Below, one piece after another: positions 1 to 36,985 of a DNA stretch of 64,000 bases (positions within the stretch are counted from its first letter, which is position 1; each line of letters begins with the position of its first letter). The notes below the pieces were generated by a model. The model was given only the letters and a program-made list of their open reading frames with translations, made no database searches and was not told where the DNA came from. The position numbers and the translations under genes were made by a program. This DNA comes from Cohnella thermotolerans DSM 17683 (GTDB lineage Bacteria > Bacillota > Bacilli > Paenibacillales > Paenibacillaceae): assembly GCF_000429825.1 (NCBI RefSeq), contig NZ_KE386959.1, positions 1-64,000 on the forward strand, given 5' to 3'.

Positions 1-257
1 ATGGGCAGTAGTTGATACAGTTCCCGTTCGGAGTGGTTGAACAGATACGAAAGCAACGTCAGTCGGACGATCCGCTCCGGATCGGCAGCGGGACGCCCAG
101 TACTCTCCGTATACAGTGGTGCCACCCAATCATAGACCATAGAGAAATCGATAGCTTCGTTCAACTGGCGCAAAATGTGCTTTTTCGGCACGAGTTCATC
201 CATGTCGATGAATTGGAACAACTGAGGCTGGATGGTCGACGACTTACTTGCTTTCAT
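1..257 (-). mobile_element. 5' part of an IS1182-like (DUF772-type) transposase gene, cut by the window edge
   Basis: An open frame begins at an ATG at 257 (minus strand) and stays open to base 1, giving 85 codons. The start of the product reads MKASKSSTIQPQLFQFIDMD and continues with DELVPKKHILRQLNEAIDFS, then a GRPAADPERIVRLTLLSYLF segment. This is the N-terminal pattern of IS1182/DUF772 transposases (FxxxDLVPxDHLLRxID, then GRPxxDPxxLxKLLxxxYLF). The catalytic DDE part lies outside the window, so activity cannot be judged. It is transcribed away from the cas remnant at 451 and occupies the place where cas3 would be expected in a type I-C locus. A weak AAAGAG ribosome site precedes the start. 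The IS terminus probably lies between 258 and 380, but I could not place its inverted repeat. Confidence 0.62.
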
Positions 258-383
258 GCTCAATCACTCTTTCAATGGTCGTGTTACTGTATAATTCGAC
301 AAAACCGTGGTAAAAGCCTGCTTGGCGGACTTTTTCACCGGACTTTTAGATGGTAGGTTTTTTTCTTTCTAACATGATATTTT

Positions 384-450: not shown

Positions 451-1169
451 ATGCGCAATAGCATTGAGTTTGTCGTCTATGGAGATTACGCCCTGTTCAC
501 CGACCCGCTCACCAAGCTCGGGGGGAGAAATTATCCTATCAGGTACCCACGTACCAAGCCCTAAAAGGGATAGTCGAATCAATTTACTGGAAGCCTACAT
601 TGCTTATTTACGTCGACGAGGTTCGCATCATGAAGCCGATCCGAATGGAGTCCAAAGGAGTTCGACCGATCGACTACGGCGGAGGGAATACGCTGGCCAA
701 CTGTACGTACTTGAAGGATGTCAGCTATCAGGTGCGAGCCCATTTCGAATTCAACCTGAATCGTCCAGACATGGCATATGACCGCAACGAGCACAAGCAT
801 CACAACATCATGAAGCGTTCGCTCCGGGCTGGAGGTCGAAGGGACATTTTCCTAGGCGCGAGAGAATGTCAGTCTTACGTCGAGCCATGCACGTTCGGCG
901 AGGGGGAAGGTTACTACGACGGCTACGGCGAGATTCATCTCGGGCCCATGCTCCATGGCATCAACTACCCGGACGAGACAGGGCGCAATCGGATGGAAGC
1001 GCGTCTATGGAGCCCGGTCATGAAGAATGGCATAATCCAATTTATTCGACCCGAACCGTGCACGCAGATCCGCCTGATTACCGACATGGAACCGAAGCGC
1101 TTTGATTCTTCGAATGTTTTATCGGCGGACGATCTGTTGACGCAATTGGAAGAGGGGGAGAATCTATGA
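451..1169 (+). pseudogene. cas5d: type I-C CRISPR protein Cas5d (Cas5c), frameshifted
   Basis: Translation from ATG 451 (ribosome site AGGAAGGTGG) gives [20 protein letters not shown] followed by TKLGG, the normal Cas5d start. The frame is lost in a run of six G at 520-525. Restoring one G continues directly as [36 protein letters not shown] and on to the stop at 1167-1169, about 239 residues and normal Cas5d length. In type I-C systems Cas5d is the endoribonuclease that processes pre-crRNA and joins Cascade. The downstream frame is intact and well conserved, so the lesion is recent or is a homopolymer sequencing error. The stop overlaps the cas8c start as ATGA, the usual translational coupling. 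Without correction the protein ends shortly after the G run. Confidence 0.85.
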
Positions 1170-1666
1170 GTTGGCTGCTTCAACTGTACGAGACCTATGA
1201 ATCGAATTTGGACTTGGTTGGCAAGTCCAAGAAGAAGCGCAACGAGCAGGAATATACGCTGCTGCCAATCTCCCACACGACGCAAAATGCTCATATCGAA
1301 GTGAACATAACGGAAGAGGGAGAATTCCACTCGGCAACTGTCGTCGACAAGAACGAAGCGAGTACGTTGATTCCCTGTACCGAAGACTCGGCGAGCCGGG
1401 CCGGCGCGAAGATCGCCCCTTATCCATTGCATGACAAGTTGAGCTACGTCGCGGGAGACTTTGCCGTCTATGGCGGGGAGATCAAAAAGGAGAACCCCTA
1501 TACATACTATATCGACAAACTGCATAATTGGGCTCATTCTCCCTACGCAACGGAAATAGTACAAAAGGTTAAGGAGTTCAATTCGGTAATCAGAGGTTTA
1601 ATTTCTGTAGAGTTTTCTAAGAAAGACCTTGAAATCACAAATTCAAATTTCTTTAATAAAGATTAG
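1166..1666 (+). pseudogene. cas8c: type I-C Cas8c (Csd1), truncated to its N-terminal fifth
   Basis: The first roughly 130 residues ([20 protein letters not shown], then REYTLLPISHTTQ-like, HIEVNITEEGEFHSATVV, PLHDKLSYVAGDF) match the N-terminus of Csd1/Cas8c, the large subunit of type I-C Cascade, normally about 550-650 residues. Similarity stops after WAHSPYATEIVQKVKEF near base 1560. The last 30 or so residues are unrelated, lysine- and asparagine-rich, and coincide with a change from GC-rich to AT-rich sequence. No cas7, cas4, cas1 or cas2 follows. This is therefore a breakpoint remnant and the product is not expected to function. It is coupled to cas5d by an ATGA overlap. Confidence 0.85.
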
Positions 1667-1689
1667 ATAACGAAAGATGGAGGTCGCAA

Positions 1690-3108
1690 ATGAATAAGTT
1701 TACTACTGCAACTGGTGCTGTAATCATCGTAGCTAGCACGATTCTTCCGGGTTATGTAGGTGTTGCAAACGCTGTTCCTCGTACGGAGATTGAATCCGTA
1801 GATCATGATTATGTTCCTTTGAAGGATATGCAGTTTTTTGGGAAAGATGTAAAGATCGCTGCTGTTTCTACTCAATCCACGACTCAAAATAAGCTTACTA
1901 ACTTTAAGGATGTAAAAGCTGGTTATTGGGCCGAATCTGTCATCCGAGATGCTGTAGCAAAAGGTTATGTTAATGGGTACACTGACGGAAGCTTTAAACC
2001 AGATCAACCTGTAAGTCGTTCTGAGTTTATCAAGATGGCAGTTGTTGCAATTGGATACAGCTTGGAACCCGCTAGAGTTGGAGTTCCTTGGTATACCAAT
2101 TATGTAGAGGCAGCGGTCAAGGGCGGACTTGTTACCCAAAATGAATTCGGTGTAAACGGATACCCTGTCGCTATGAAACGCTCTGAGATGGCTAGAGTGG
2201 CTGTAAGAGGGATTAACCAAGCTGCTAATGATGACGCTAGTTACATTCTCTTGGCGGCAAAGGCTGGTCTTATTACGGGTACGGGTAACGGTAACTTGGA
2301 TTTGGATGGGACTACTACTCGTGCGCAAGCTGTAGCTATTATCGAGCGTATTCTTAAAGTAAGGGCAGGTGAGACATTACCCGTAGATCAATCCGCTGTA
2401 GACAGCGCTCAAGATGAAATTAGCGGAAAGAAAGACTTGTGGGGTCAAGTAATTCGTACCACGAATCTTCCGAAGAACGCCGCTAGTTATCCGTACATCT
2501 TGAAGAACGTTCCGAATGAGATGTATGAAATGCCGTTTAAGAGTGGAGACAAGTTTGCAAAGCTTGTTACTCCTGCAAGTATTATGGCGGAGTATGGTTA
2601 CAATAAAGAAGTTATCGATAAGGCTGTTTATGAAGCTAAGAGTTTCTATGATCTCATTTTCAATGTGGATTATAGGACCATTTCTGCTTCTTGGGCTAAT
2701 AAGGTCTACAATCTTTTGGACGCTGCTGGTCAAAATGCTGCAGGTAGGGCAGAAGTTAAGAAGAGTATTAATGATTATGTCCAATGGGTGAAAACGAATA
2801 AGCTGGTAACTATCGGAAGTGTAACTCCACAACCCTCGATGTTTTATTACTATGGAACAGGCTATTTGCGTTCCACTTTTGAGTTTAAGGTAGTGTCCGC
2901 CGATAAAGGTGCCTTCAATTGGGATGGGGAGCACTCGTTGGAGTGGACTATTTTTTGGGGTCAGATTTGGGATATGACTTCTATCGATCCCAAAGTAGGT
3001 GTCACTTATAAGGGTTACTCGGATATTCCTCTCATTTACAATACTAAGGGATATTATCATCCCTTTGTTTACACTGATTTTACCACCAATTATAAGTTAA
3101 TCAAGTAA
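1690..3108 (+). CDS. secreted S-layer-homology (SLH) domain protein
   Basis: The 472-residue product starts at ATG 1690 after AGATGGAGG. Residues 1-28 form a signal peptide ending VGVANA. Three SLH motifs follow: about 70-123 (FKDVKAGYWAESVIRDAVAK, then GYTDGSFKPDQPVSRSEFIK), about 130-175, and about 180-225 (GNGNLDLDGTTTRAQAVAII). Three SLH copies normally bind pyruvylated secondary cell-wall polymer, so the protein should sit on the cell surface. The remaining 240 residues, with many aromatic residues, match nothing I recognise. The gene lies inside an AT-rich stretch that replaces the rest of the cas8c locus, and its codons are visibly more A/T-ending than those of its neighbours. That suggests acquisition from a lower-GC source. 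No sortase signal is present. Confidence 0.8.
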   Translation: MNKFTTATGAVIIVASTILPGYVGVANAVPRTEIESVDHDYVPLKDMQFFGKDVKIAAVSTQSTTQNKLTNFKDVKAGYWAESVIRDAVAKGYVNGYTDGSFKPDQPVSRSEFIKMAVVAIGYSLEPARVGVPWYTNYVEAAVKGGLVTQNEFGVNGYPVAMKRSEMARVAVRGINQAANDDASYILLAAKAGLITGTGNGNLDLDGTTTRAQAVAIIERILKVRAGETLPVDQSAVDSAQDEISGKKDLWGQVIRTTNLPKNAASYPYILKNVPNEMYEMPFKSGDKFAKLVTPASIMAEYGYNKEVIDKAVYEAKSFYDLIFNVDYRTISASWANKVYNLLDAAGQNAAGRAEVKKSINDYVQWVKTNKLVTIGSVTPQPSMFYYYGTGYLRSTFEFKVVSADKGAFNWDGEHSLEWTIFWGQIWDMTSIDPKVGVTYKGYSDIPLIYNTKGYYHPFVYTDFTTNYKLIK

Positions 3109-3121
3109 TTGAGGTGGAAAA

Positions 3122-3373
3122 GTGCTTAAACAGCTTAGGCAAGTTGTCTTAGGTTTATTATTGTCCATTATCGTCTCTTCTCCGTTTTTAGAGATAGCCC
3201 ATGCTGATAATCTTGACTTCGACAGAGATACCGGATTTTTGAGGTTTAAAACTTTTGTAAATGCTGCTTCAACCTCAATTAAGTACAGAACTGCTGGATT
3301 TTATGTCCACACAGTTCCATCGAATGGGGAGCCCAATAAGCTTTTTAATCAGGGCAAAGCTGGAGTTATTTAA
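3122..3373 (+). CDS. small secreted protein of unknown function, probably a truncated gene
   Basis: GTG start at 3122 with GAGGTGG upstream, 13 bases after the SLH gene, giving 83 residues. Residues 1-28 look like a signal peptide (LLLSIIVSSPFLEIAHA, cleavage after AHA). The mature part is only about 55 residues and contains no motif I recognise. After the TAA the same frame continues for 18 codons (AFDGVRREFLRYKTRT) to a TAG, so the gene may be the start of a longer one disrupted by nonsense mutations. It probably forms a transcription unit with the SLH gene and shares its AT-rich composition. It could equally be a genuine short protein. Confidence 0.5.
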   Translation: MLKQLRQVVLGLLLSIIVSSPFLEIAHADNLDFDRDTGFLRFKTFVNAASTSIKYRTAGFYVHTVPSNGEPNKLFNQGKAGVI

Positions 3374-3490
3374 GCTTTTGATGGTGTCAGAAGGGAGTTT
3401 TTACGTTATAAGACAAGAACTTAGTCGCACAAGAAACCGCCGTATTTGTGGCTTTTTATGGTGCTGCAAGATGTCAAGACAGTTTTTTGA

Positions 3491-3519
3491 TATAATTAAT
3501 TTGTGAAATATTTCACAAA
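3491..3519 (+). promoter_or_regulatory. Rex-like palindromic operator beside a TATAAT box, without an adjacent gene
   Basis: A perfect 20-bp palindrome, TTTGTGAAATATTTCACAAA, lies at 3500-3519. Its core TTGTGAA-ATAT-TTCACAA is the arrangement described for binding sites of the redox repressor Rex in Firmicutes. TATAAT at 3491-3496 is immediately upstream. No coding sequence follows on the plus strand, and the next gene (hemL) reads toward it. It may be the left-over control region of a lost gene, part of the CRISPR trailer, or a chance AT-rich palindrome. Confidence 0.45.
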
Positions 3520-3521
3520 TC

Positions 3522-3552
3522 GTCGGATCCGCAGGGATGCGTGGATTGAAAT
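3522..3552 (+). CRISPR. single orphan, degenerate type I-C CRISPR repeat
   Basis: The 31-base segment begins GTCGGATCC, continues GCAGGGATGC and ends GTGGATTGAAAT. The 3' half (GATGCGTGGATTGAAAT) is the handle typical of type I-C repeats, as is the leading GTCG. Inserting one C and changing one G to C restores a perfect GCATCCC-GCA-GGGATGC stem and the usual 32-base length. Degeneracy in the 5' half is what is expected of the terminal, leader-distal repeat. No second repeat or spacer was found nearby. It lies on the same strand as the cas remnants at 451-1560. Confidence 0.7.
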
Positions 3553-3556
3553 ATAT

Positions 3557-3590
3557 CCCAGGCTGCCGAGAGCGAATCGGCGAGCCTGGG
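3557..3590 (-). terminator. hairpin downstream of hemL, probable terminator
   Basis: CCCAGGCT-GCCGA pairs with TCGGC-GAGCCTGGG around a 7-base loop, with one bulged G. On the minus strand it lies 27 bases past the hemL stop and is followed by a modest T-rich stretch (ATATATTTC). Confidence 0.5.
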
Positions 3591-3616
3591 TTGGCGAAGC
3601 AGGAACTTGATAGACG

Positions 3617-4933
3617 TTACCTCCGCGCGATCGCCTTGAAAGAAGCTTCCGCCGCCTCCAGCGTGTCGTCGATGTCCCGGTCCGTGTGCGCCGTCGTCAG
3701 GAACCAGGCTTCGTACTTGGACGGCGCCAGGTAAATGCCGCGCTCCAGCATCTCGCGGAAAAACCGCGCGAACAGCTCGCCGTCCGTATCCTGCGCCTCC
3801 GCGTAGTTCGTGACCGGGTGGTCGCAGAAGTGGGTCGAGAACGCGCCGACGATGCGGTTGATCGTCAGCGGCACCCCGTACCGGGCGGCCGAGTCGCGCA
3901 GACCGTCCGTCAACCGCGTCGCCAGCGCCTCCATGCGCTCGTAGACGCCGGGCTCGCGCAGCACCTCGAGGCAGGCGATGCCCGCCGCGACGGAAGCGGG
4001 GTTGCCCGCCATCGTGCCGGCTTGGTAGGCCGGACCGAGCGGCGCGATCTGCTCCATCACCTCGCGCCGCCCGCCGTAGGCGCCGATCGGCAGCCCGCCG
4101 CCGATAATTTTGCCCAGCGCTGTCAAGTCCGGCTCGATCGCCGCCCGGTCAGGGAACGCGGCGAACGTCTGCGCCGACCCGTAATGGAAGCGGAACGCCG
4201 TGATGACCTCGTCGTAGATGACGAGCGCTCCGGCTTCCCGCGCCAGGCGGCAGACGCCTTCGAGGAAGCCCGGCTTCGGCATGACCATGCCGAAGTTGCC
4301 GACGATCGGCTCCACCAGGACGGCTGCCACGTCGTCGCCCCAGCGCTCCAGCGCCAGCTTCAGCCCGTCCAGCTCGTTGAACGGCACGGTGACGACTTCG
4401 TTCGCGATGCTGACCGGGATGCCGGCGCTGTCGGGAATGCCGAGCGTCGACGGCCCGGAGCCGGCGGCGACAAGCACCAGATCGGAGTGGCCGTGATAGC
4501 ATCCGGCAAACTTCACGATCTTGTTGCGACCCGTCGCGGCGCGGGCGACGCGGATCGTCGTCATGACCGCCTCCGTGCCGGAATTGACGAACCGCACCTT
4601 GTCCATCGACGGAATCGCCTCTTTGAGCATGCGCGCAAGCTTAATCTCGCCTTCCGTCGCCGTCCCGTACAGCGTGCCGTTCCGCGCCGCGCGCACGATC
4701 GCCTCCGTCACATGCGGATGCGCGTGGCCGGTAATGATCGGCCCGAACGCCGCCAGATAGTCCACGTACTTGTTCCCGTCCGCGTCCCAGAAATAGGCGC
4801 CTTGCGCGCGCTCCATGAACACCGGGGCGCCTCCGCCCACCGCCTTGAACGAGCGGGAAGGGCTGTTCACCCCGCCGACGATATGCCGCTTCGCTTCTTC
4901 GTACAATTGCGCCGATCGGACTCTCTCTTGCAT
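3617..4933 (-). CDS. hemL: glutamate-1-semialdehyde 2,1-aminomutase, GsaB type
   Basis: The 438-residue product converts glutamate-1-semialdehyde to 5-aminolevulinate, the tetrapyrrole precursor, using PLP in the cytosol. Visible landmarks are [17 protein letters not shown] at the N-terminus, the PLP-phosphate region [17 protein letters not shown], the aspartate in [10 protein letters not shown] that contacts the cofactor, and the Schiff-base lysine in [19 protein letters not shown]. Length is normal for class III aminotransferases of this family. The [12 protein letters not shown] and [11 protein letters not shown] wording resembles Bacillus GsaB, a second copy, rather than the HemL found with hemAXCDB, and no other heme gene is nearby. 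The start ATG at 4933 has a GGAGGCG ribosome site. It appears to be a single-gene unit ending at the 3557-3590 hairpin. Confidence 0.92.
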
Positions 4934-5085
4934 ATTCCAACGCCTCCTTCGGGTTAACGCAACCGGGGACCGTCTCGGCGACGGCCCCCTTGTGCGGCTA
5001 AAACGATGACTCGATAAATGACCGGGTGAATCGGCAAACCGCTAGGCCGGTCTGTGGCCAGGTGATCCAGCGAATCCGCCGCTCC

Positions 5086-6099
5086 TCACTCCGCGCTCGC
5101 GGAAGGCGAAGCCGACGCCGACGCGGACGGGCTTGCCGGAGCCGTCGTCTCGTCCTTCTGCAGCTCTTCCTGAACGTATTCCTTGAGCGCTTCCGGGTCC
5201 TTCACGCCGAGCACCGAAGCGCCGGCTTCGCGCTCGTCGGAGATGAGATCCATTGGCGGAATCTGGGCGGAGCCGGCCTGATGCGACTTGTACCCGAGGC
5301 TCGCCAGCTTCAGCATATCGTTCGCGGACAGGTTCGTCTCGATGTACGGATTCACCTTGTTCAGAATTTCGGGCAGCTTCATGAGGTTCCAGCCGTTCTT
5401 CAGCTTGTCGGCGACCGCCTTCAGGAACGCGCGCTGGCGTTCGGTCCGCGTGAAATCGGACATGGCGTCGTGACGGAAACGCACGTATTGCAGCGCATGC
5501 TCGCCGTCCAGATGCTGCTGGCCTTTTTTCAGATCGATGTCATAGACGTGTCCGTCCGCTGCGTCCGTGTAATGCATATCCTTTTCGACGTAGAAGTCAA
5601 CCCCGCCGATCGCGTCCACCAGCTTGATAAAGCCTTGGAAATCGACATAGACGTAATACTGAATATCCAGGCCGAGCAGGTTGCCGACCGTCTTCATCGC
5701 CAGATTCGGGCCTCCGAGCGTAATCGCCGTATTGATCCGGTTGTTCTTGTACCCCGGAATGTCTACGTACGTATCGCGGAGAATGGAGAACAGATGCGCT
5801 TTCTTCGTCACCGGATCGAAGGAAGCGACCATCATGGAGTCGGAGCGGGCGATTTCGCCCTTGCGCAGGCCGCGTTCGTCGCCGCCCATGAGCAGAATGT
5901 TCACCCGCTCGGTGCCCGTCCATTCCGGCGGCTTCTCCTCCGGTTTGTCCTCGAATTGGCCGAAGCGGGATTCGTCCTTCGACTTCGACATTTCCCCCAG
6001 CTCGTGGTAGGTGCCGTATACTTTCCACCCGACAAGCAGCAGGGCGACCACCACGAGAGCCAGTACGCTAAATAAGGTCCATTTCCACTTTTTTCTCAT
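5086..6099 (-). CDS. LytR-CpsA-Psr (LCP) family cell-wall glycopolymer ligase
   Basis: 337 residues. Residues 7-27 form one N-terminal membrane anchor, so the catalytic domain faces outside. The LCP domain covers about 65-235, with its hallmarks GDERG, SDSMMVASFDP, LFSILRDTYVDIPGY (arginine that binds pyrophosphate), GGVDFYVEKDMHY and RFRHDAMSDFTRTERQRAFL. LCP enzymes transfer undecaprenyl-linked teichoic acid or related polymers onto peptidoglycan. The C-terminus ends in a low-complexity Ser/Pro/Ala tail. The ATG at 6099 follows AAAGGA. It is divergent from the ABC exporter genes at 6271. A GC-rich hairpin without a good T run lies at about 4967-4991 downstream. Confidence 0.88.
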   Translation of the reverse strand: MRKKWKWTLFSVLALVVVALLLVGWKVYGTYHELGEMSKSKDESRFGQFEDKPEEKPPEWTGTERVNILLMGGDERGLRKGEIARSDSMMVASFDPVTKKAHLFSILRDTYVDIPGYKNNRINTAITLGGPNLAMKTVGNLLGLDIQYYVYVDFQGFIKLVDAIGGVDFYVEKDMHYTDAADGHVYDIDLKKGQQHLDGEHALQYVRFRHDAMSDFTRTERQRAFLKAVADKLKNGWNLMKLPEILNKVNPYIETNLSANDMLKLASLGYKSHQAGSAQIPPMDLISDEREAGASVLGVKDPEALKEYVQEELQKDETTAPASPSASASASPSASAE

Positions 6100-6270
6100 G
6101 TTGACGTAATCCTTTCGCCGGTATGGCAGCCCGGATCAAGCCGCTTGCGGGTCCGGTTCCGCTGCCGTTTACGCGGTATGTTTAGCGTATTATGATTACA
6201 TATTGTAAAATTATAAAGTTATGCCGCATATAGAATCAAGTTTTGTCGAATTGGGGGGGACGATGAGCCT

Positions 6271-7296
6271 ATGCTGGCAATCGACGTGCACCAGTTGCGC
6301 AAGCAATTCAAAGTTCAAAAAAACCGCGAAGGCCTCAAGGGAGCGTTGCTCGATCTGTTCAAGCGGGAGCATACCGAGGTGACGGCGGTCAAGGATATTA
6401 GTTTTCAGATTCCCCAAGGGGAGATTTGCGGATACATCGGCGAGAACGGCGCGGGCAAATCGACGACGATCAAAATGCTCACGGGCATTCTCGTGCCGAC
6501 GTCCGGACGCCTTCTCGTGAACGGCTACGTTCCCTACAAAGAGCGCGAGCAGTTCGTTCGCGGCATCGGGGTCGTGTTCGGGCAGCGAAGCCAATTGTGG
6601 TGGGACATCGGCGTCATCGAATCGTTCCGCTTGCTCCGCAAGGTGTACCGGGTCGACGAGGCCGACTTCAAGCGCCGGCTGGACGAGCTGGTGGAGACGC
6701 TGCAGCTTGGCGATCTGCTCAACCGGCCCGTCCGCAAGCTGAGCCTCGGCCAGCGCATGCGGTGCGAGCTTGTGGCGGCGCTGCTGCACCAGCCGTCCAT
6801 CCTGTTCCTGGACGAGCCGACCATCGGCCTGGACATCGTCGTCAAGACGGAAATTCGCGAGTTTCTCAAAAAGCTGAACCGCGAGCACGGCACGACCATT
6901 TTGCTTACGACCCACGATCTGCAGGACATTGAAGCGTTATGCTCCAGGGTTATTATGCTCGACGACGGCCGAATCATCTACGACGGCGGCCTGGAGGAGC
7001 TGAAGGAGCGCTGGGGCAAAGGCCGCGAGGTTCAGTTCCAGTTCACCGATCCGATCCCGCTGGCGGCCGTATCCGCGCTCACGAGCGGTTTGGACGTGCG
7101 CTGGACGAAGGAGAACGAGGTGACGGCCAAAGTATGGATTCCCCGCGAGCTGAACGTGTCGGACGTGCTGTCCCGGGTCGTCGGATCGTCCGCGGAGATC
7201 AGCGACATTAAAATTTTCGAGACGAACACCGACGAAATCGTGCGCGAAATTTACCGCACCGGAAGCCCGGAGGCGAAGGAGGCCGTCCGTGGCTAG
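6271..7296 (+). CDS. ABC-2 type exporter, ATP-binding protein
   Basis: 341 residues with one nucleotide-binding domain: Walker A GENGAGKSTTIKM near residue 58, Q-loop region FGQRSQLWWD, signature LSLGQRMRCELV, Walker B ILFLDEPTIGLD and the switch histidine in LLTTHD. About 90 extra residues follow. The FGQRSQLWWDI wording and the two partner permeases resemble the DUF990-type exporters annotated for drugs or viologens. The substrate cannot be inferred. ATG 6271 was chosen because the run of G at 6253-6259 is a plausible ribosome site and the nearer ATG at 6263 is out of frame. The stop overlaps the next gene by 8 bases, indicating coupled translation. Confidence 0.9.
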   Translation: MLAIDVHQLRKQFKVQKNREGLKGALLDLFKREHTEVTAVKDISFQIPQGEICGYIGENGAGKSTTIKMLTGILVPTSGRLLVNGYVPYKEREQFVRGIGVVFGQRSQLWWDIGVIESFRLLRKVYRVDEADFKRRLDELVETLQLGDLLNRPVRKLSLGQRMRCELVAALLHQPSILFLDEPTIGLDIVVKTEIREFLKKLNREHGTTILLTTHDLQDIEALCSRVIMLDDGRIIYDGGLEELKERWGKGREVQFQFTDPIPLAAVSALTSGLDVRWTKENEVTAKVWIPRELNVSDVLSRVVGSSAEISDIKIFETNTDEIVREIYRTGSPEAKEAVRG

Positions 7297-8083
7297 CGCT
7301 TACCTTGACTTTATTCGCATCCGTTTCCTGATGATGCTCGCTTACCGCGTAAATTATTACAGCGGCATCGTCATTTATGCCATCAACATCGGCGCTTACT
7401 ATTTCATGTGGAAGGCGATCTATGGAAGCGCCGAGACGCTGGGCGGCTTTACGGTCGCGCAGATGACGACTTATATCGCGGTCTCCTGGATGGCGAGAGC
7501 TTTTTATTTCAATAATCTCGACCGGGAAATATCGAACGAAATCCGCGACGGCAGCGTGGCGGTGCAGATGACGAGGCCGATCTCCTATCTCATGGTGAAA
7601 ATGATGCAGGGCTTCGGCGAAGGCCTGTTCCGGCTGCTCCTGTTCATGGCGCCCGGCATGATCGTGGCCATCCTCATTTTCCCGGTGTCGCTGCCGACCG
7701 ATCCGCTTCGCTGGGCGATGTTCTTCGTCATGATCTGGTTCAGCTTCCTCATTAATTCGCAGCTTAACATTTTGACGGGACTGTTCGCTTTCTTCGTGGA
7801 AAACAACGAAGGCCTCATGCGGCTCAAACGCGTGCTGATCGATCTGCTGTCGGGCGTCATTTTGCCGATGACGTTCTTCCCGGGCTGGGCCAGGGCGATT
7901 CTCGACTGGCTGCCCTTTCAGGCGATTACGTATTTGCCGGGCTCCGTGTTCACGGGAAGACTGAGCGGCGGGGACGCCTGGAACGCGCTGCTCGTCCAAT
8001 TCGTCTGGTTCGCGGCGCTGATCGTGCCGATCTGGCTGATGTGGCGGGCGGCGCGCAAGCGGCTGTTCGTGCAAGGGGGGTAA
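7289..8083 (+). CDS. ABC-2 type exporter, permease subunit 1
   Basis: 264 residues from GTG 7289, overlapping the end of the ATPase gene. About six hydrophobic helices are visible, for example YSGIVIYAINIGAYYFMW, LLLFMAPGMIVAILIF and LIVPIWLMW, and there is no ATP-binding motif. The pattern fits the ABC-2 family (DUF990/ABC2_membrane_6). It should form a heterodimer with the following permease and use the ATPase encoded just upstream. The three genes almost certainly form one operon. Confidence 0.85.
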   Translation: MASAYLDFIRIRFLMMLAYRVNYYSGIVIYAINIGAYYFMWKAIYGSAETLGGFTVAQMTTYIAVSWMARAFYFNNLDREISNEIRDGSVAVQMTRPISYLMVKMMQGFGEGLFRLLLFMAPGMIVAILIFPVSLPTDPLRWAMFFVMIWFSFLINSQLNILTGLFAFFVENNEGLMRLKRVLIDLLSGVILPMTFFPGWARAILDWLPFQAITYLPGSVFTGRLSGGDAWNALLVQFVWFAALIVPIWLMWRAARKRLFVQGG

Positions 8084-8089
8084 GCGGCC

Positions 8090-8887
8090 ATGCGGAAAAT
8101 GGGTTTTGCGCTGTCGCTATTTCGGGAGTACTTGGCCAATTATATAAAAACGAAGCTGACGTACCGCGCCGACTTCTGGGTCGAGGTGTTCTCCGATCTG
8201 ATGTTCTCGGCGATGAATCTGATCTTCATCTTCGTCGTGTTCACGCACACGCCCGCCCTCGGCGACTGGACCGAAGCGGAAGTCGTGTTCGTGTACGGCT
8301 ACTTCATGATTCCTTACGGCATTTTCAGCACGTTCATGAACTTGTGGAACTTCAGCGACAGGTACATTACGAAGGGGGAGATGGACCGCATTCTGACCCG
8401 CCCGGCCGGATCGCTGACGCAGGTCATGCTGGAAAACGTCGATCCGCCTTCGCTCCTCGGCTCGCTCGTCGGACTCGGCATCATGGCGGCGGCTTGGGCG
8501 AAGCTCGGGCTTCCGCTGCATTGGTACGATCCGCTCGTGCTGATCGTTATGGTGCTCGGTTCGGTGCTCATTTACATGGGCTTGTACACGGCGCTCGCGG
8601 CCATCTCCTTCTACTCGGACGCCCCGACGGGCATCGCGCCGCTCATGTACAACATCCAGAACTACGGGCGCTATCCGATTCAAATTTACAACAAGGGCAT
8701 TCGCTTCCTGCTGACCTGGTTGCTGCCGTTCGCTTTCGTCGGCGTCTACCCGGCTTCGTTTTTCCTGGACCGGCATCACGATCGTGTCATGGCGTGGCTG
8801 ACACCGGTTATGGGCGTCATCTTCTTCGCCCTCGGCCTGTACGTGTGGAACCGCGGCGTGAAGCGGTACCGGGGCGCGGGGTCGTAA
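8090..8887 (+). CDS. ABC-2 type exporter, permease subunit 2
   Basis: 265 residues, ATG 8090, 6 bases after the preceding stop and with GGGGG as ribosome site. About six membrane helices are present (DLMFSAMNLIFIFVVFTH, LVLIVMVLGSVLIYMGLYTA, MGVIFFALGLYVWNRGV). The N-terminal YRADFWVEVFSDLMFS segment is typical of the second permease of this ABC-2 type. It completes the exporter. No terminator was recognised before bcp at 8981. Confidence 0.85.
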   Translation: MRKMGFALSLFREYLANYIKTKLTYRADFWVEVFSDLMFSAMNLIFIFVVFTHTPALGDWTEAEVVFVYGYFMIPYGIFSTFMNLWNFSDRYITKGEMDRILTRPAGSLTQVMLENVDPPSLLGSLVGLGIMAAAWAKLGLPLHWYDPLVLIVMVLGSVLIYMGLYTALAAISFYSDAPTGIAPLMYNIQNYGRYPIQIYNKGIRFLLTWLLPFAFVGVYPASFFLDRHHDRVMAWLTPVMGVIFFALGLYVWNRGVKRYRGAGS

Positions 8888-8980
8888 GGGCCGCCGTCGG
8901 GCGCGAGGCCGGGATCGGGGCAATCTATACGGAAGACCGAGCTGTTAACGGAAAACCAAGCTGTCAAAGGAGCAACCAAG

Positions 8981-9445: not shown

Positions 9446-9536
9446 GGCGCACCGTTTTCTGCGCTGCCAGGGGATGTTCCAGAAGGTCTTCTTTGGCTTG
9501 TCTTGGGCATCCTCTTTCTCGTTTTCCGCCGGACAT

Positions 9537-9893
9537 CGGCCAAGGCGGCTCAGAATCTGAGCTGCATCCGCCCCCTCCGCCGAACGTCGGCCAAAGCGGC
9601 TCAGAATCTGAGCTACATCCGCCCCCTCCGCCGAACATCGGCCAAAGCGGCTCAGAATCTGAGCTACATCCGCCCCCTCCGCCGAACATCGGCCAAAGCG
9701 GCTCAGAATCTGAGCTACATCCGCCCCCTCCGCCGAACATCGGCCAAAGTGGCTCAGAATCTGAGCTACATCCGCCCCCTCCGCCGAACATCGGCCAAAG
9801 CGGCTCAGAATCTGAGCTACATCCGCCCCCTTCGTCGAACATCGGCCAAAGCGGCTCAGAATCTGAGCTACATCCGCCCCCTCCGCCGATCCC
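9537..9893. repeat. seven tandem copies of a 51-bp unit
   Basis: The landmark TCAGAATCT recurs at 9550, 9601, 9652, 9703, 9754, 9805 and 9856, an exact 51-base period. Each unit carries GCTCAGAATCTGAGC, a 7-bp inverted repeat around one base, then a pyrimidine-rich CATCCGCCCCCTCCGCCGAA and CATCGGCCAAAGC. Copies differ by a few substitutions (copy 1 has AAGG and TGCA; copy 5 has AAAGTGG; copy 6 ends CTTCGTCG). Because 51 is divisible by three, several frames stay open across it; none has a convincing start. It fills the gap between bcp and the sugar-permease operon. Confidence 0.92.
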
Positions 9894-22712: not shown

Positions 22713-22742
22713 GAGGAAGGACAACAAACTGAATCGTATTTT

Positions 22743-22806
22743 TCGTATAATCCCGGGAATCGGCCCGGGAGTCTCTAGGGATCACCGCAAATGATCCGGC
22801 TACGGA
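22743..22806 (+). ncRNA. purine riboswitch aptamer, guanine/hypoxanthine class
   Basis: The P1 strands CGTA and TACG enclose the conserved TATAATC start. The first hairpin has CCCGGGAATCGGCCCGGG with the loop-2-type sequence, the junction GTCTCTA follows, then the second hairpin around ACCGCAAATGAT and the closing GGCTACGG. The base at the position that pairs with the ligand is C (CTACG), which specifies guanine or hypoxanthine rather than adenine. The expression platform is the terminator at 22874-22903. Confidence 0.88.
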
Positions 22807-22873
22807 AAACGGGAAAGACAGACCGGCGGGAAAACGCGCGATTCCCCCGGTATGCTTTTTCGTCGTTGTGCGG

Positions 22874-24866: not shown

Positions 24867-25760
24867 CTAGCTGGCTTTTTGGCCGTAAATCCTTCGAGCG
24901 GCCTTGCGGGTAAGCTGAGGGTAGGTAATGACGGGGCGCGAGACGCACTGCCGAAGCAGATCCCGAACGATCGAATCTTTGCTGGAAGTGAAGTTGAATC
25001 GGTAACCGTACTCGTCCAAGTAAGCCTGCAAATGCTTGGGACCAATCCCGCAGTAGATCTCGTTCATATAGCGCGACATTTGATAGCAAAAAGCGTTTAA
25101 AGGCCGATAACGAGCAGAGTTGTAGATGCCGGGAGCGACCTTAAGGTCGGCTTCCGATGCGACGCATTGCTGAAGGAAGCACCGCATGCCGTATCTCGTC
25201 GTCACTCCCATGAACAATTGCTCCTCTGCCACCTGGTGCAGTTTCACACGGAGCAGATGGCCCTCCTCCGAGATGGAGGCGGCGGTAATCAAAGGCCGGT
25301 ATTTCACATTTCGCCTATAAACGGAGTAAAGAGAGGTCGGCCCATGACGGTCTTCATTGACCCGCACATGACCGGTGAGCGGAAGCTCGGATGTGGTCAG
25401 ACGGATGGCGTGGCGAATCTTGTGGGCGATCAGCCAGGCGGTCTTGTACGTTACCCGGATCGCTTTGGATAACTCGCGGGCGTTAGCGCCTCTTGCAATG
25501 CAATAAATCGCCAGAAACCATTTGCGAAGGGGCGTCTTGCTTTTCTCCATCACGGTTCCTACGGTTAACGACGTCTGGTGACGGCATCTTCCGCATTCAT
25601 AGAGGGGAAGCCGCCGGGTACGCGTCACGGAAGCCTCCCGATGGCGACACAACGGGCAGACATAGCCGTCCGGCCATTTGATCTCGTACAGCTTGCGTGC
25701 GCAGGCTTCTTCGGTAGCAAAACGCCGGCAGAAGGCCTCCATAGACAGGCTCCAATCCAT
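24867..25760 (-). mobile_element. IS1595-like transposase with doubtful catalytic residues
   Basis: 297 residues. The N-terminal zinc ribbon of the IS1595/ISXO2 family is present (CPLCRHREASVTRTRRLPLY, then CGRCRHQTSLTVGTVMEKSK), followed by the helix-turn-helix-like GANARELSKAIRVTYKTAWL and a DDE-like C-terminal domain (CGIGPKHLQAYLDEYGYRFN). The position normally occupied by the first catalytic aspartate (V-D-E-T in active members) reads VRVNEDRHG, so that Asp is Asn. This suggests an inactive or repurposed copy. It starts at ATG 25760 and is flanked by repeats of one family in opposite orientation (24500-24538 and 25870 onward). I saw no obvious target-site duplication. Confidence 0.75.
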
Positions 25761-25869
25761 CGCGGCTCCCCCTCAAACCGAATATATGTTCCTATATTTT
25801 GATTATACCAAACAAATGTTCTCATTTCAAGGGCGATTTTTTAGTAAGAAGAAGAAACGACCACGCCAT

Positions 25870-36766: not shown

Positions 36767-36793
36767 TATAACCGTAAAAATAAGCGTAAATGG

Positions 36794-36860
36794 CTCGTAT
36801 ATTTTCGGGAATATGGCCCGATCGTCTCTACCCGGAAACCTTAAATTTTCGGACTACGAG
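36794..36860 (+). ncRNA. purine riboswitch aptamer of the purine operon, guanine/hypoxanthine class
   Basis: P1 arms CTCGTA and TACGAG enclose TATATT. The first hairpin carries TTCGGGAATATGGCCCGA with the conserved ATATGGC loop, then GTCTCTACC and the second hairpin with ACCTTAAATT. The closing GGACTACGAG has C at the ligand-pairing position, indicating guanine/hypoxanthine. A terminator follows at 36986-37027. Confidence 0.9.
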
Positions 36861-36985
36861 CTCTTGGACAAACAGGTGGAATGCCGGATCGAGGAACGAC
36901 AAATTCCGAGCTCCCGGCATTGCGCCTTTGTCGCGTCCAATGGGCCGAAGCCTGAATTGCCAAGGTTCGTTCGAGAGAGAAGATG

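Follow-up and report, generated by a model that had tools for sequence, protein, structure and literature searches.

A probable pseudogenised type I-C CRISPR-Cas locus in Cohnella thermotolerans DSM 17683, compared with the intact locus that a relative has at this site

Decay of CRISPR-Cas loci has been described in Weizmannia coagulans, for which the parts of the published account that we draw on report orphan arrays, incomplete cas cassettes and loss of CRISPR-Cas (PMC8954581). The locus described here appears to be another case. We put at roughly 0.92 the probability that it is a pseudogenised type I-C locus lying at its native site, flanked by a GH53-type gene on one side and hemL on the other. 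The literature, searched at the level of titles and the beginnings of abstracts, returned no account of this locus.

The type I-C remnant and its intact counterpart

The window, by which we mean the whole 64-kb stretch of DNA that was analyzed, is the first part of contig C9 (103,648 bases) of a 5.05-Mb genome assembled in 138 contigs. In window coordinates, the features at the locus are as follows.

1 to 355, minus strand: one end of an IS1182-family element, truncated at the edge of the contig; transposase N-terminus at 3 to 263, outer edge at about 355 as judged by eye
451 to 1169, plus strand: cas5c pseudogene, which starts at 451, shifts frame at about codon 25 and is open from 600 to 1169
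1166 to 1560, plus strand: beginning of cas8c, the first 132 or so of 628 codons; past them the frame continues to 1666 through unrelated AT-rich sequence
1560 to 1689, plus strand: zone of the left junction, with the AT-rich stretch that leads into the SLH gene, delimited by the end of nucleotide homology to genome G006 and by protein similarity to relatives
1690 to 3108, plus strand: gene for an SLH-domain protein, 472 codons, open (PF00395)
3122 to 3373, plus strand: 83-codon open reading frame with a signal-peptide-like start
3457 to 3518, no strand assigned: terminus of an IS3-family element, 62 bp; outer edge at 3457, interior lost beyond 3518
3522 to 3552, plus strand: single degenerate type I-C repeat, recognized by its similarity to the array repeats of G006
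3617 to 4933, minus strand: hemL, a flank common to the intact locus of G006; the gene was named from its sequence, without a family search

The order and strand given in an earlier note on this DNA (transposase, cas5, start of cas8c, SLH gene and fragment, one repeat) are as it described them. GC content is 52% at 600–1555, 42% at 1690–3373, 67% in hemL and 60% over the whole window. A profile in 100-base steps shifts at 1500–1600 and again at 3500–3600, the former being the change of composition that had been noticed at the left junction. Elsewhere the window holds two purine riboswitch aptamers on the plus strand (22723–22822 and 36775–36876; Rfam RF00167, 64 and 83.9 bits), a tandem array of 7.2 copies of a 51-bp unit with 96% matches (9525–9889), and on the minus strand an open frame that by eye has the look of an IS1595-type transposase (24870–25772).

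The Cas5 reading of the earlier note stands as to family, since a profile search assigns 600–1169 to the type I-C Cas5c family (TIGR01876, E 6.9e-57), but the gene is frameshifted near its start: alignment with the intact G006 copy places the start codon at 451 in a different frame, by a one-base change. The frame at 1166–1666 encodes the N-terminus of Cas8c/Csd1 (PF09709, E 1e-17; TIGR01863, E 1e-18), with a TIGR01863 match that covers profile positions 1–130 of 588 and, being to a fragment, falls below the cut-off. The fragment matches 12 of the 60 genomes searched, its own included, and 8 of 37 in the genus (the latter a row count). In the other 11 genomes the frame is 631–751 codons long.

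The nearest relative of the fragment is found in G006, a genome of the same genus, in which the locus is divided between two contigs with the break inside cas5. Contig C145 carries a GH53-type gene (recognized by eye), other genes, a leader, repeats (13 by manual count), cas3 and the start of cas5. Contig C164 carries the rest of cas5, cas8c (628 codons), cas7, cas4, cas1, cas2, a leader, an array of 18 repeats and one degenerate repeat, and then hemL, LytR and an ABC gene. Type I-C arrays likewise flank the cas genes on both sides in other relatives (L045 of G034; L041 and L042).

The window shares the hemL flank with G006 at 85.3% nucleotide identity over 5,299 bases (window 3617 to 8893, spanning hemL, LytR and the ABC gene), and the hemL products are 94% identical. 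Sharing of the site is known for this pair of genomes alone, a hemL match having been found in one of the 11 intact-locus stretches fetched (L035–L045). The SLH protein has no match within the intact-locus stretch of G006. The earlier note had called for an intact relative, and G006 is one, with a type I-C locus at the same site on both the hemL and the GH53-type sides. Because that full locus lacks an SLH match, the arrangement of cas8c fragment and SLH gene is derived. The two loci are alike in their flanks, in cas5 and the start of cas8c (84–85% nucleotide identity), in cas3 (84%), and in leader and repeat. Relative to G006, however, the window locus lacks most of cas8c, cas7, cas4, cas1, cas2 and nearly all of the repeats, its cas3 and cas5 are broken, and IS and SLH DNA has been added.

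The counterpart of the GH53-type side is at the end of another contig, C35, which carries in order a GH53-type gene (84.6% identical to that of G006), the leader of a first array, two repeats that are degenerate by eye, cas3, and an IS1182-type end. This cas3 is 84.4% identical to that of G006 over 1,855 bases. It begins at residue 195 of 811, the first 194 residues being gone, and contains one in-frame stop and one frameshift; in G006 Cas3 the HD-domain profile TIGR01596 covers residues 16–206. The IS1182 end in the window encodes a transposase N-terminus (NF033551, E 6.3e-17, a fragment below the curated cut-off), and that on C35 a transposase C-terminus running to the contig end (E 7.6e-13). 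By eye, the outermost bases of the two are near-identical inverted copies. The transposase and the inverted ends place 1–355 in the IS1182 family, both pieces being fragments, and no full copy was seen. From the IS ends and the gene order in G006 we infer that C35 and C9 would be adjacent, with a single IS1182 copy separating cas3 from cas5.

When the DNA of G006 from mid-cas8c to cas2 was compared with this genome, the single match was one of 43 bp on C35, which is the leader of the first array. Apart from it, the DNA search found no trace of the window-lineage genes from mid-cas8c to cas2 elsewhere in the genome. Searches with Cas1 and Cas7 returned one match each, both on contig C50, and cas4 and cas2 of the window lineage were sought by DNA search only. 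The earlier note had proposed that everything from mid-cas8c through cas7, cas4, cas1, cas2 and nearly all of the array was lost; these parts are present at the site in G006 and were not found here, which bears the proposal out. Its main inference of a collapsed locus also holds, but cas3 survives, truncated, on C35, and the ancestral locus had two arrays rather than one.

Homology to Cas5c and Cas8c, a type I-C repeat and a position that is occupied by an intact locus in a relative mark these pieces as the remnant of a type I-C locus. They do not amount to a functional system. No cas7 was found beyond the match on C50, and cas8c breaks off after about 132 codons of 628. In place of a Cas3 with HD nuclease and helicase there is a piece that starts at residue 195 and is interrupted by the stop and the frameshift. 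The one cas1 match is on C50, the DNA search for cas4 and cas2 was negative, and the arrays are reduced to one repeat in the window and two degenerate repeats on C35. Judging from the known roles of these proteins, the remnant would be unable to interfere, since Cas7, the greater part of Cas8c and the HD portion of Cas3 are missing, or to adapt by its own genes, since it has no cas1-cas2.

The left junction and the SLH block

Across cas5 and cas8c, nucleotide identity to G006 is 84.5% over 766 bases, and the match stops at window 1560. Protein similarity of the cas8c fragment, weaker than the nucleotide match, continues to residue 138–161 depending on the relative, so any point between 1560 and about 1650 could be the left junction. 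The junction had been placed at 1545–1565 in the earlier note, which fits the nucleotide data, but the weaker protein similarity widens the zone. The short direct repeat looked for at 1545–1570 and 3380–3522 was not found: no direct repeat of at least 14 nt joins the two junctions, and the longest word common to both is of 6 nt, which was equalled in 252 of 300 shuffles, with nothing beyond chance.

The SLH gene encodes a protein with a clear SLH-domain match (PF00395, E 1.5e-18) and homologues that are 36–50% identical over most of its length. It was matched in all 60 genomes searched, in many through the SLH domain alone, the longest matches being in G282 (50%), G090 (42%), a P. amylolyticus plasmid (39%) and G041 (36%). 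The named genomes yielded one relative, in P. senegalensis (32%), and a partial match in Thermobacillus. No close DNA donor for the block was found among 392 genomes of the order with two candidates scored per genome, the best match being 70% over 257 nt. In the plasmid collection 31 records matched the protein, one of them over at least 80% of its length, at 39% identity. A single weak phage record matched the block (27%, E 9e-6), and it was found in none of six pattern matches among viral contigs. The idea of a phage-borne cargo was therefore dropped.

The 83-codon frame behind the SLH gene has no match in Pfam, NCBIfam or PHROGs. However, over residues 20–79 it is 38% identical to the beginning of the 1,108-codon frame that follows the SLH homologue in G282. 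It is thus likely to be the stub left from a far longer secreted protein, and the SLH block is probably a fragment. The SLH protein is 50% identical over residues 69–471 to that of the G282 locus (L130), and the second genes start similarly, but the G282 frame is 1,108 codons long and that in the window 83. Speaking against a stub, the second gene behind the SLH gene of G041 is also short. Together with the intact SLH gene and a terminator-like stretch seen by eye downstream, at about 3437–3456, this would fit a complete two-gene unit that was captured whole and is expressed from the dead locus, with a putative role at the cell surface. Given the length of the second gene in G282 and of the comparable genes in three further loci (335–1,272 codons in L047, L086 and L091), we consider that reading unlikely and prefer the stub.

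The SLH gene pair may travel with mobile DNA. In G041 (L046, 4669–14869) the neighbours of the homologous pair include small DNA-binding proteins and a frame that by eye resembles a phage tail tape-measure protein. The C-terminal domain of the SLH protein is also found, both in this genome and in relatives, downstream of an N-terminal domain of the copper-amine-oxidase type (PF07833; L047 at 5097–7268, L086 and L091), and each of these genes precedes a gene for a secreted protein that begins in the same way as the 83-codon frame. As far as scans of Pfam and NCBIfam show, the PF07833-type gene pair is undescribed.

The right junction

The earlier note had taken the whole AT-rich block for one S-layer-type segment. 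DNA of an SLH gene is indeed present, but the block comprises at least two things, one of which is the end of an IS3-family element. The sequence at 3457–3518 is 82–89% identical in 18 of the 21 loci that were put into one alignment, and its outer edge falls at 3453–3458 in 17 of these 18, the remaining one extending to 3440. It is present in at least 29 of 392 genomes of the order (row count), a lower bound given that two candidates were scored per genome. In the plasmid collection it had no match. Inward of the terminus, G016 has the last part of an integrase whose score assigns it to the IS3 family (E 3.7e-11), and three of four further loci (L116, L117 and L119; not L124) have frames that look IS3-like by eye. 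Many sites, one outer edge and an IS3-type transposase on the inner side place the sequence in this family, although only 62 bp of the element are left in the window. Three copies in G029 share further inward sequence past 3518, where the window switches to the CRISPR repeat, so the element is cut off at the repeat. Three contigs of G029 (ends L061, L068 and L074) terminate in the same IS3-family element, which probably breaks that assembly.

The repeat at 3522–3552 is about 91% identical, over 33–37 nt, to most array repeats of G006, and in this form it occurs once in the genome. Next to it, a palindrome at 3500–3519 lies behind a TATAAT, looks like part of a regulated promoter or leader, and matches the Rex-box consensus. 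Since the palindrome is part of the IS3-family terminus, reading it as an operator or leader was rejected. A reading of 3457–3518 as a spacer was rejected as well, 62 bp with a fixed IS edge being longer than the 33–37-nt spacers seen. An IS terminus with a palindrome can therefore mimic a regulated CRISPR leader when it lies beside a repeat.

Course of decay, a second type I-C locus and known cases

The remnant could have arisen through the following events. An IS1182 copy would have come to sit between cas3 and cas5, SLH-gene DNA would have entered cas8c, and an IS3-family element would have landed behind it. A deletion with one end within this element and the other in the second array, sparing one repeat, could in a single step have taken what remained of the IS, the 3' portion of cas8c, cas7, cas4, cas1, cas2, the leader and the other repeats. 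In principle, further strains could show in which order the lesions arose. Relative to G006, dN/dS is 0.12 for cas8c codons 1–130, 0.06 and 0.07 for the two cas5 pieces and 0.14 for the cas3 piece, and in the flanks it is 0.08 for hemL, 0.08 for LytR and 0.05 for the ABC gene; each value comes from one pair and carries no error bar, and dS is high (0.4–0.9). The low values of the cas pieces suggest that most of the divergence arose under constraint. It thus looks as if the cas genes were constrained for most of the divergence and inactivation is young relative to the split from G006, although values this low would also arise if single pieces are still in use.

The same low values, together with the open frames of the SLH gene and the cas8c fragment, would also suit a locus whose present form is the ancestral one, namely a minimal cas5-cas8c unit carrying SLH cargo. 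We give this almost no credence: cas5 is frameshifted, the cas8c frames of the 11 other genomes run to 631–751 codons, G006 has the full operon at the same site without an SLH match, and the repeat abuts a cut IS end. That unrelated pieces were joined in the draft assembly is also very improbable. The assembly is in 138 contigs, the window begins at a contig end inside an IS, and the right junction coincides exactly with an IS end, all of which invite the suspicion. Both junctions, however, are within one 103,648-base contig, and there are independent lesions apart from them (the lost start, the stop and the frameshift of cas3, the cas5 frameshift and the degenerate repeats). Moreover, the missing genes were not found elsewhere in the genome, and neither was a second match to this IS end, few candidates having been scored. 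Decay of a resident type I-C locus remains by far the better account.

A second type I-C locus is present on C50, with cas3, cas5, cas8c, cas7, cas4, cas1 and cas2 in order and in open frames, six repeats past cas2 and a further array past cas3 that includes a stretch of N. In principle it could interfere and adapt. The earlier note had held that a full cas set elsewhere could make the copy in the window a duplication. The C50 set is of another lineage, and the remnant is not closer to it than to the loci of other genomes, so a duplicate was rejected. In searches of this genome the window Cas8c fragment and the C50 Cas8c each find only themselves, and C50 Cas5 and Cas3 are about 28–34% identical to those of window-type loci in relatives, apart from one 62-residue Cas5 piece at 41%. 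C50 Cas8c matches G027 at 82% and G020 at 61%. Both of these genomes also retain a window-type Cas8c, which indicates that the two lineages can coexist and speaks against displacement by the C50 lineage as a general rule. For this genome it is conceivable, but we think improbable, that the hemL-side locus was displaced, selection on it having lapsed once the C50 lineage was in place and the dead site then being colonized repeatedly by IS elements and a perhaps expressed surface-protein gene. If so, a succession of immune systems would have been caught midway.

Spacers were compared with the intruding DNA, using 527 candidates from 17 loci (8 of the candidates from this genome, all from C50) and 13 targets that comprised the window, the C35 end, relatives of the SLH gene and IS copies. 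No match covered a spacer, and the best by E-value was 19 identical nt of 36, in the P. senegalensis stretch. There is thus no sign of an array targeting the SLH block, the relevant arrays themselves being lost.

The locus adds one more example to a familiar type of CRISPR-Cas decay, itself ordinary genome decay, and it leaves the general picture unchanged. As a case of loss it is a clean one: what went missing is defined by the intact copy that a relative carries at this site, and the other type I-C lineage was kept complete. Compared with W. coagulans, as described in those parts of the account (PMC8954581), what is set out here is a site-matched intact locus together with the individual lesions.
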